A stretch of DNA of 64,000 bases, from positions 1 through 64,000 of the IMG/VR virus record IMGVR_UViG_3300046028_005224; one strand, 5' to 3'. Position 1 is the first letter of the stretch. Every line of letters starts with the position of its first letter. The DNA is from a virus. Below are positions 21,602 to 44,555 of this stretch, in pieces. Both the position numbers and the translations under genes were made by a program. The notes below the pieces were generated by a model. It saw nothing but the letters and a program-made list of their open reading frames with translations, had not been told where the DNA came from and ran no database searches.

Positions 21602-21767
21602 TTTTGTTAAAAGAGTAGTAAGACCATCAGGGAAATGGTGGAGTTACTATGCTCCCGCCACCCTCAGGCGGGATATGAGAGACGTAATTTAGACACCCAT
21701 AGGTCTCGGTTAACGGGTGTTACAAACATTAAAGAACCGTTACATTCCTTAACGTATTGATCTATTT
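21602..21767 (-). promoter_or_regulatory. Structured 5' leader of psbA
   Basis: About 160 nt lie between promoter and start codon. Three stem-loops can be drawn: ACACCC/GGGTGT (21693-21720), CCCGCC/GGCGGG (21654-21672) and ACCAT/ATGGT (21623-21639). None has a following T-run that would make it an ordinary terminator. The last one lies about 20 nt before the ATG. Light- or stability-linked control of psbA mRNA is plausible; I do not recognise a known riboswitch. Confidence 0.5.
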
Positions 21768-39670: not shown

Positions 39671-39854
39671 CATGTAACTCAGGCTCGCCACTTGCCCTTT
39701 GTCTGGAGGCAAGAAACCAGGCGGGGTTACCCCATCCGCACCACCAGTTTTTTAAGGAAACTGGAAACCTCAGGGGTCATTTGACCATCCCGACCAGGGT
39801 TGTTAACGTGTCTCCATCACGGGCATATTGGGGATGACTCCACCAGGATAAGTT
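39671..39854 (-). ncRNA. Candidate structured RNA / 3' untranslated region
   Basis: A 184-nt gene-free stretch with about 54% G+C over 39661-39780, against about 25% in neighbouring sequence. Several hairpins can be drawn: CTTGCC/GGCAAG (39691-39713), GGGG/CCCC (39723-39733), CCAGTTT/AAACTGG (39744-39764) and GGTCA/TGACC (39775-39786). An intrinsic terminator follows. Only short broken frames are found on the minus strand. No match to tRNA, tmRNA or a known ribozyme is evident to me. Confidence 0.45.
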
Positions 39855-40587: not shown

Positions 40588-40755
40588 TTAATCAGTAAAC
40601 CCGCTACATATTCGCACCATATCCTCATACTCATCTATTGGCATAAGAACACAATCTCCGTTGACACTTTTAATTAAAAAAGTTTCTCCTTCGCCAACGC
40701 GATCAAGGTAATCTTCAAAATACTGTTGCAATTCATCAACTGTAATTTCAGTCAT
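40588..40755 (-). CDS. Orphan Phd/YefM-type antitoxin-like protein
   Basis: 55 codons from ATG 40755 (an upstream in-frame ATG at 40776 adds only KKLIRQ). TEITVDELQQYFEDYLDRVG, then EGETFLIKSVNGDCVLMPID and YEDMVRI give the classic Phd/YefM fold: N-terminal beta-alpha DNA-binding core and a toxin-binding helix start. No toxin (Doc, YoeB, RelE) follows; the neighbours are tRNAs. It may neutralise a host toxin or act as a repressor. Located between tRNA-Pro and tRNA-Ile in one transcript. Confidence 0.6.
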   Translation of the reverse strand: MTEITVDELQQYFEDYLDRVGEGETFLIKSVNGDCVLMPIDEYEDMVRICSGFTD

Positions 40756-40794
40756 TTGTCGTATCAATTTTTTCATTTTATTTATAAAATGATA

Positions 40795-42711: not shown

Positions 42712-42727
42712 GTGAACCTCCAGTAGG

Positions 42728-42808
42728 TGCCCGAAAGAGGACTTGAACCTCCACTCCTTACGGAACATGATCCTAAGTCATGCGTGGCTACCATTACACC
42801 ATTCGGGC
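42728..42808 (-). tRNA. tRNA-Leu (TAG)
   Basis: 81 nt with long variable arm, acceptor GCCCGAA/TTCGGGC, anticodon loop CTTAGGA, discriminator A. Confidence 0.93.
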
Positions 42809-42852
42809 AAAAACCCCTATAGGGTATATAGCTATTATACACCATATAGGGG
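42809..42852 (-). terminator. Terminator of the porin gene, overlapping the tRNA promoter
   Basis: Minus-strand CCCCTATA ... TATAGGGG (42814-42852) followed by T5. The loop contains the TATAAT of the tRNA promoter. Confidence 0.65.
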
Positions 42853-42863
42853 AAGGCTGTCAA
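42834..42863 (-). promoter_or_regulatory. Sigma-70 promoter of the tRNA-Leu/Asn/Val/Ser group
   Basis: TTGACA (42858-42863), 18-nt spacer, TATAAT (42834-42839), just after the porin stop. Confidence 0.8.
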
Positions 42864-42866
42864 CTA

Positions 42867-44369
42867 TCAGAAACGGAAGGTTGTCTGAATCACACCACCA
42901 TAATTATCCGAAGCTTGCTTCAGACCTTGGTTGTTGGACACATAGAACACAGCAGGAGTTACGCTGATATTATCGCTAACTTTGTAACGATAGAATGCTT
43001 CCCACATAATCGCTTTCTGATCTGCTTTGAGTGAAGAAGCATTACCAGGAGCACCAATGGCGAAACCAGCAGCATTACCCTTAGAAAATACATCGCTCCA
43101 CTGAGTACCAACAAACCAAGTTTGGGAGTCGGTAGCACCATTAGGAGTTGGACGGTTGTTAGAAACACTCACAGTGTTCCAACCATAAGCACCACTCACA
43201 GAAGGAATGATACCAGACTTCTTGGGTTGCCAGTATGCGTTGAAAGCATAACCATTGGAGGTTTGGTTAGCAGCAAGAGCACCAGAACCACCACCGATAG
43301 CGTTGAAGTTACGAACACGAGTTCCTTCAGTACCGTAGCGGTAACCGAAAGCAACACCATACTGAGGAGCACGGTAACCAACCTGTGCCAGAGTGTTCAG
43401 AGAACCATCTTCATCAAACTGACCTTTGGTAGAATCGTTTCCGTTCTGGGCAACATAGTTGATACCAGCAACAAAACCAGGCTTACCTTTCTTGGTAGGT
43501 TGAACCCACTGAGCACCGAAACCAGAACCAGTTGCCTTGTTGTAGACACCAGGAGCACCAGCAACAGAGAAGAAGTCCAGAATGTCTGAACGATAGGCAG
43601 TAGGAACCCAAGCCATCTCAGTGTTACGAACCTGAGCACCAGCAGTCAGAGTCATACCTTTGGTAAGACCAGGGAAGCTATAATACAGACGATCAAGAGT
43701 TACAGTGTTTGCATAAGTTTCTGCCTTGTCCAGTTTGAACAGAGACGAGGAAGAACCAAAGGGTTGACTGGAGAAATTACCAGAACGCAGACGGGTCTTC
43801 AACAGATCCTTACCAGTGAAGGAAGTATCAAAGCTCAGACGAACATCGTAGTTGAAAGCAGTGTTACCGACATTGCTGCTGTTAGCAAGACGAGCACCAT
43901 CTACACCACCCAGAACGAAGGTTGCTTCACCTTTGAGTTTGGTTGTAGTGGAGAATTGAGTTGCTTGGAGAGTCCCAACTTGTTTCTCCAGTTTAGCAAC
44001 ACGACCTCGAATAACTTGCAGTTCGTTAGAGAACTCATTAGCAAGACGCTGGAGTTCATCGGTAACTTCGGTTACACGATCAAGGCAAGCATTCAGAAGT
44101 GCTGCTGCCTCAAAGCGGGTCATTGCCTTTCCACCAAGGAAAGTTCCATTCTCGTAACCAGCAACGCAACCATAACGCTCTACGAGGTTGCTGAGTGCCT
44201 GATATGCCCAATCTGTAGGTTGAACATCAGACAATTTAGTAATACTTGAAACCTGCTCAGCGGAAGTATATTGGTTGACTGCTGCCATATTAAGATCTGC
44301 GGCATTCGCAGCAACAGGAGCAACCATTCCCAGAGCAACAGGTGCAAGCATAAGTTGTTTGAGTTTCAT
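42867..44369 (-). CDS. Cyanobacterial-type SLH-domain porin
   Basis: 500 codons. Signal peptide (KLKQLMLAPVALGMVAPVAANA). Residues 45-95 hold an SLH domain: SDVQPTDWAYQALSNLVERY, GCVAGYENGTFLGGKAMTRF, EAAALLNACLDRV. A short coiled coil follows (ELQVIRGRVAKLEKQVGTLQ). Residues 150-500 form a beta-barrel of the cyanobacterial porin (OprB/SomA, iron-uptake porin) type, ending in Phe (GGVIQTTFRF). It is a full-length, intact host-type outer-membrane channel. It has its own sigma-70 promoter (44439-44467) and terminator and stands between tRNA groups. Base composition is richer in G+C than its neighbours, pointing to recent host origin. Confidence 0.88.
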   Translation of the reverse strand: MKLKQLMLAPVALGMVAPVAANAADLNMAAVNQYTSAEQVSSITKLSDVQPTDWAYQALSNLVERYGCVAGYENGTFLGGKAMTRFEAAALLNACLDRVTEVTDELQRLANEFSNELQVIRGRVAKLEKQVGTLQATQFSTTTKLKGEATFVLGGVDGARLANSSNVGNTAFNYDVRLSFDTSFTGKDLLKTRLRSGNFSSQPFGSSSSLFKLDKAETYANTVTLDRLYYSFPGLTKGMTLTAGAQVRNTEMAWVPTAYRSDILDFFSVAGAPGVYNKATGSGFGAQWVQPTKKGKPGFVAGINYVAQNGNDSTKGQFDEDGSLNTLAQVGYRAPQYGVAFGYRYGTEGTRVRNFNAIGGGSGALAANQTSNGYAFNAYWQPKKSGIIPSVSGAYGWNTVSVSNNRPTPNGATDSQTWFVGTQWSDVFSKGNAAGFAIGAPGNASSLKADQKAIMWEAFYRYKVSDNISVTPAVFYVSNNQGLKQASDNYGGVIQTTFRF

Positions 44370-44438
44370 AAAAGTTTGTATTGTTATTAAACGACAATAG
44401 TGTTTAGAAGTCTTAAAAAAATCTTAAGACACAAGGAT

Positions 44439-44467
44439 ATACTAAGATATTTTCGTGTGTATGTCAA
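44439..44467 (-). promoter_or_regulatory. Sigma-70-type promoter of the porin gene
   Basis: TTGACA (44462-44467), 17-nt spacer, TAGTAT (44439-44444). A GTCTTAA/TTAAGAC hairpin lies in the leader. Confidence 0.65.
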
Positions 44468-44484
44468 CTAAGATTTGGTTAAGA

Positions 44485-44555
44485 AGCGGACAACGGGGAT
44501 CGAACCCGTGACTGGAGCTTGGAAGGCTCAGATGTTACCTCTACACCATGTCCGC
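44485..44555 (-). tRNA. tRNA-Gly (TCC)
   Basis: 71 nt, acceptor GCGGACA/TGTCCGC, anticodon loop CTTCCAA, T arm GGTTCGATCCC. Confidence 0.95.

Follow-up and report, generated by a model that had tools for sequence, protein, structure and literature searches.

An SLH-domain porin of phage lineage with a Pho-box-type promoter element in an exchangeable outer-membrane-barrel slot of a T4-like cyanomyovirus

Results

The DNA analyzed here (the window) is a stretch of 64,000 nucleotides from a 91-kb genome fragment of a T4-like cyanomyovirus (IMG/VR record IMGVR_UViG_3300046028_005224) whose host group is freshwater cyanobacteria. Over the nrdA-nrdB-gp61 region, the genome matches Synechococcus phage DSL-LC03, the nearest isolate, at 82% identity. 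A reading frame of 500 uninterrupted codons (42867–44369, minus strand) starts with ATG and ends in ...QTTFRF. It is bordered upstream by tRNA-Gly(TCC) (44485–44555) and downstream by tRNA-Leu(TAG) (42726–42808), and the ORF and tRNA coordinates, all on the minus strand, confirm the complete porin gene between two tRNAs proposed in the preliminary description. All 19 further phage records that bear the porin have the frame intact and without stops, and the median pairwise dN/dS (omega) of the phage porins is 0.17; therefore, it is not a chance ORF, and the gene is confirmed as real. A separate 62-residue ORF among the tRNAs (40588–40776, minus strand) resembles a Phd/YefM-type antitoxin, and DSL-LC03 encodes a 'prevent host death protein' in the corresponding region.

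The ORF, profile matches, an AlphaFold2 model, and structure matches all identify the product as an SLH-domain porin. A Sec signal peptide (residues 1–23; 44301–44369) was predicted by eye, with its boundary between VAANA and AD, and A23 is invariant in 64 phage relatives. The SLH domain (residues 47–89; 44103–44231), a peptidoglycan/cell-wall polymer binding module, was assigned by Pfam (33.8 bits, cut-off 20.8) and by a match to the OmpM stalk. It leads into a periplasmic coiled-coil helix (residues 85–137; 43959–44117) in the model and then into a porin barrel that ends in a C-terminal Phe (residues 142–500; 42870–43946), all on the minus strand. The Pfam OprB match scores 51 bits (cut-off 22.9). 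NCBIfam NF033921 (por_somb) matches residues 40–500 over model positions 1–485 of 485 with 292.3 bits against a cut-off of 100, and the whole-model score, SLH domain, coiled coil, 16-strand barrel, and C-terminal Phe together place the protein in this family. An initial model built from close relatives only reached a pLDDT of 50 and was replaced using a more diverse alignment of 64 sequences, which gave a mean pLDDT of 74.5 with the barrel mostly at 80–93. This model has 16 strands within residues 142–499, preceded by the helix at 85–137. Its top match among solved structures is OprB (4gey; Z 25.2, 317 residues). Other 16-strand porins also score high, including the anion porin Omp32 and the phosphate porins OprO (Z 22.2) and OprP (Z 22.0), and many general porins are similar. 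For the amino-terminal part, the match is the SLH stalk of the tethering porin OmpM from Veillonella.

The gene has its own transcription signals on the minus strand. A sigma-70-type promoter, TTGACA-17-TAGTAT, lies at 44439–44468, and a hairpin in the 5'UTR (GTCTTAAGA/TTTTTAAGAC; 44410–44430) has similar counterparts in many relatives. Folding identified a terminator hairpin with a U tract (U5) at 42809–42852; the hairpin itself, at about 42852–42814, has a folding energy of −22.4 kcal/mol and a z of −3.6. With the profiles and the model, these signals support the earlier view of a host-type SLH porin that carries its own promoter and terminator. A perfect match to the sigma-70 promoter consensus (TTGACA-18-TATAAT; 42834–42863, minus strand) overlaps with the stop codon of the porin gene and is directed into tRNA-Leu, with its −10 within the terminator hairpin loop. 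The porin leaders of the window (44370–44440, minus strand) and of related loci L007–L082 share the modular hairpins CTTAAG...CTTAAG and GAGGTTTT...AAAACCTC and a conserved CGTTTAGTAC...AAACTTTTTATG. An Rfam scan of the window gave no hit in the leader of the porin gene; its matches were the tRNAs, wcaG (39677–39772) and PhotoRC-II (21639–21732), the last two on the minus strand and well above their gathering scores. The leader might conceivably be a target of Yfr1.

Comparison with DSL-LC03 delimits the porin slot between the tRNAs. DNA homology ends at 44484, where tRNA-Gly has its 3' end, and is picked up again at 42816, immediately ahead of tRNA-Leu. Between these borders the window carries promoter, porin, and terminator, and DSL-LC03 carries a 122-residue Phage_OMP barrel (PF24653; 82.8 bits versus 27). 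Phage_OMP proteins (122–123 residues) are outer-membrane barrels without an SLH domain, unrelated to the window porin barrel. In S-PM2, the position after tRNA-Gly(TCC) is taken by a 279-residue SLH protein long labeled an S-layer protein. This 'putative S-layer protein' (S-PM2p168) and the 'iron uptake porin' S-CREM1_199 have a signal peptide, SLH domain, coil, and C-terminal Phe, as does the window porin; unlike it, they have only about 150–180 residues after the coil, and no OprB match was found in proteins of this type. All 80 small SLH-barrel relatives have a C-terminal Phe, and tRNA-Gly precedes about half of them. Cyanophage proteins annotated 'S-layer' or 'iron uptake porin' are ~280–294 residues long and combine SLH, coil, and a putative small C-terminal barrel; S-PM2p168 corresponds to L085:5932–6771 and S-CREM1_199 to L084:5935–6813, with related loci at L192–L271. 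In a second neighborhood, with glycosyltransferases upstream and hli, ferredoxin, peroxiredoxin, and C39 peptidase genes downstream, some contigs have a porin and DSL-LC02 has Phage_OMP. No locus carries two of the three barrel types. None of the 22 records with a porin or a small SLH barrel has Phage_OMP, and the porin profile is absent from DSL-LC02, DSL-LC03, and S-SZBM1; many of these records are fragmentary. The slot is exchangeable between different outer-membrane barrels.

A Pho-box-type element, recognized by sequence and conservation, overlaps the −35 of the porin promoter. It consists of two 11-bp direct repeats (CTTAACCAAATCTTAGTTGAC; 44463–44483, minus strand) and contains the repeat CTTAACCNNNNCTTARTTGAC; the stretch upstream of the −35, CTTAACCAAATCTTAGTTGACA, likewise resolves into two 11-bp repeats that overlap TTGACA. 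Read as tandem 8-bp repeats with a 3-bp spacer (CTTAACCA-AAT-CTTAGTTG), again overlapping TTGACA, it has the arrangement used to define Pho-regulon sites, and it also follows the rule CTTA-N7-CTTA of an earlier cyanophage survey (PMC3037559). Its score is 12.3, within the range of 8.7–19.2 for published host Pho boxes (PMC1906773, Table 1). Boxes of positively regulated Synechocystis Pho promoters overlap the −35 or sit further upstream (PMC13226834). Synechocystis PhoB requires three TTAA repeats (PMC11126600), and the window element has only two repeats, the second of which is CTTAG. Pho-box prediction in S-PM2 was described as unreliable (PMC10976474).

Matches of this IUPAC quality are about as frequent in the 64-kb window as chance predicts (29 found, 24.9 expected), and the lone window match was taken as chance until its conservation in relatives was seen. 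Matches at 0–1 mismatch in nine phage records all precede a porin (7/7), the two in G004 among them, and in 1.45 Mb of relatives' loci all 38 distinct copies stand before a porin and none elsewhere. The position of the element relative to the −35 is fixed in relatives whose spacers and leaders differ. Upstream of the other barrels, the element reached threshold at 0 of 54 small SLH barrels and 4 of 37 Phage_OMP genes. Of the 71 basic phage porins, 44 have a high-scoring box; none of the 36 that are acidic or neutral has one. This split is not independent evidence because the charge classes are largely clades. One record (G004) has two porins (C1:62786–64165 and 77589–78953), each with its own element. 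The leaders of L112–L190 and L192–L213 often carry a (C/T)TAAATAA(A/C) motif near the start of acidic porins or small SLH barrels; it resembles the cyanophage late promoter NATAAATA and replaces the Pho-type promoter there.

The gene for the phosphate-binding protein PstS was found directly downstream of 41 of 97 distinct phage porin loci (about 40%). The same position holds pstS at 1 of 51 SLH-tethered small barrels and 2 of 36 Phage_OMP genes that use the same slots. The difference (41/97 versus 3/87) gives a Fisher p of 8e-11, to be read with the caveat that the sequences are related and that neither the pstS nor the Pho-element counts are independent. The phosphate link belongs to the porin and not to the slot, as both pstS and the Pho-type element are rare at the other barrels. 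The neighboring gene was identified by TIGR00975 (262.6 bits versus a cut-off of 205), and the phage pstS genes next to porins have canonical Pho boxes of their own, most scoring 15.8–19.2 and one 10.9. In the 91-kb record of the window, the porin and its Pho-like box were found and pstS was not; the complete S-SRM01 genome has the porin, and again no pstS was found. One pstS beside a porin (G003:C1:215550–216513) is split over two reading frames by a frameshift or a sequencing error. Dps-like genes occur in the vicinity of the porin at 15 of 34 representative loci (downstream in L058, L063, L083, and others), which hints at iron or oxidative-stress functions in this part of the genome.

The barrel of the window porin has a net charge of +11. 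Net charges range from +8 to +13 in its clade versus −18 to +5 in 14 cyanobacterial plasmid homologues. The argument that a basic barrel makes a phosphate porin was weakened by the acidic phage porins, which adjoin pstS just as often (13/32). Because of this equal frequency, charge alone does not decide a phosphate role.

The preliminary description took the porin for a recent host gene, and the distribution of its relatives does not support this reading. Tblastn of phage isolates found a full-length porin in S-SRM01 only, 74% identical to the window porin. Peptide scans of IMG/VR recovered 411 relatives from the window porin and 309 from a more distant porin, two sets that may overlap. The same scan of 84,980 species genomes detected no close host-genome copy; it relies on exact 8-residue matches, which a distant host ancestor would escape. 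Its one hit, contig L002 (CALGUV010000018.1), is filed under a 'Microbacteriaceae' MAG. That contig encodes a phage-like sigma factor and deoxycytidylate-deaminase-like, hli-like, and ribonucleotide-reductase-like proteins beside tRNA-Gly, and because of this phage-like content we read it as a misbinned cyanophage contig. The phage porins have diversified down to 63% identity. These comparisons show that the porin belongs to a large, old phage family spread over hundreds of viral contigs and that it has circulated in phages long enough to reach this divergence; the omega of 0.17 and the scan without a host copy also speak against a recent transfer. The only outgroup for the porin tree is a set of plasmid-borne porins of other cyanobacteria, on very long branches. 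The GC3 of the porin gene (0.36, against a window mean of 0.25, sd 0.08) would be compatible with an older host origin.

Discussion

The closest known counterparts of the window porin are the cyanobacterial SLH-OprB porins (SomA/SomB, Slr1908, Slr1841; NF033921), which share its SLH domain, coiled coil, barrel, and C-terminal Phe. Full-length cyanobacterial plasmid homologues are about 28–36% identical to it and mostly acidic, whereas the window porin is phage encoded with a basic barrel. S-SRM01 carries the 74% identical porin, alike over its full length, between tRNA-Gly and tRNA-Val; its locus differs from that of the window in having no Pho-type element. The gene is annotated 'porin', and the main texts of the S-SRM01 and S-CREM1 papers are silent on it. 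Phosphate-responsive porins are known from hosts. One is the SLH porin gene slr1908, a binding target of PhoB whose expression rises 7.5-fold when phosphate is missing (PMC11126600). Prochlorococcus PMM0709 ('phoE'), an OprB-domain porin, rises 10–700-fold in phosphate starvation (PMC5451487), and by locus number it adjoins the pstS gene PMM0710 (PMC1906773). PMM0709 is a host chromosomal gene, unlike the window porin, and the two are compared here by domain and regulation. Cyanophages carry phosphate genes of their own, pstS and phoA, with predicted Pho boxes (PMC3037559); these act in the periplasm, unlike a porin, and that survey names no outer-membrane porin. The pstS of P-SSM2 is under host PhoBR control, as cited in PMC10976474. 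Phage pstS, the annotation of phage porins, and phosphate-induced host porins are already known. The exchangeable barrel slot, the porin-specific Pho-type element, and the porin-pstS linkage with its slot-matched control appear to be new as far as the sources searched show.

The evidence tips, by a modest amount, toward a host-PhoB-responsive anion or phosphate channel that feeds PstS from an outer-membrane-protein cassette site. In this scheme, the phage-lineage version of the cyanobacterial SLH porin would be exported from the cytoplasm by its signal peptide, the SLH domain and coiled coil would tie it to the cell wall, and the 16-strand barrel would form a pore in the host outer membrane. 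The host-type sigma-70 promoter and the Pho-box-type element would drive its synthesis, which host PhoB probably raises in a phosphate-short infected cell by binding the element. The basic barrel may favor anions, and the pore may admit phosphate or phosphate esters into the periplasm, where the PstS encoded next door in many relatives would capture phosphate to the benefit of the phage. The porin itself would occupy a cassette slot in which cyanophages swap outer-membrane barrels. The suggestion in the preliminary description that the porin alters nutrient uptake gains indirect support in this more specific, phosphate-linked form, from the pstS adjacency and the Pho-type box.

The same description also proposed an effect at the cell surface. 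A barrel in this slot could change or mask the infected cell surface for superinfection exclusion or receptor replacement, with any pore function secondary. Three unrelated barrel types replace one another in the same slots, with no two at one locus, and two of the three are too small for a classical pore. Annotated glycosyltransferases lie just upstream in one of the two neighborhoods (DSL-LC02), the most variable barrel stretches (356–365, 400–411, and 446–454) are loop-like in the model, and the S-PM2 version is reportedly transcribed early and abundantly and has been proposed to be protective (PMC2984593). The omega of 0.17, however, gives no sign of overall diversifying selection, and surface remodeling leaves the porin-specific pstS linkage and Pho-type boxes unexplained. 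As the main function, we consider it unlikely, yet the strongest of the alternatives. The phosphate and surface readings are compatible: the slot may hold surface barrels, one version of which also does nutrient work. The small barrels are unlikely to conduct.

Uptake of iron, as an inorganic cation, is improbable. It would agree with the NCBIfam name 'iron uptake porin', with the Dps-like neighbors, and with slr1908, which is both PhoB controlled and iron linked (PMC11126600, PMC8707739), but the window clade has a positively charged barrel and the specific downstream partner is pstS. We give still less weight to a tether role, in which the barrel would serve just as an anchor while the SLH stalk fastens the outer membrane to the peptidoglycan of the infected cell. 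The SLH domain and coiled coil are conserved in the porin and small SLH-barrel types, loss of Slr1908 leads to hypervesiculation (PMC8707739), and OmpM is a proven tether (PMC10628300); against this, Phage_OMP fills the same slot without an SLH domain. A virion or assembly protein is hardly credible for a product with a signal peptide, SLH domain, porin barrel, and C-terminal Phe whose gene lies among tRNA genes under its own promoter.

The channel that feeds PstS is the reading we modestly favor. A broader proposal is that the genomes of many cyanomyoviruses use either of two fixed slots for a single exchangeable outer-membrane barrel. Its scaffold would be one of three unrelated kinds (bare small barrel, SLH-tethered small barrel, or SLH-tethered 16-strand porin). 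Where the slot holds the porin, PhoB would drive its synthesis, and this phosphate porin and the neighboring PstS would together give the phage its own route for phosphate from outer membrane to periplasm during infection. We regard this wider model as plausible, although it falls slightly short of probable. The phage phosphate genes known so far (pstS and phoA) act in the periplasm. If the proposal is true, a porin wired to the host phosphate switch and paired with PstS would widen viral nutrient capture to include the outer membrane of freshwater picocyanobacteria. Why cyanophages should encode outer-membrane and 'S-layer' proteins has long been asked, and the exchangeable slot makes the question testable through natural swaps in close genomes.
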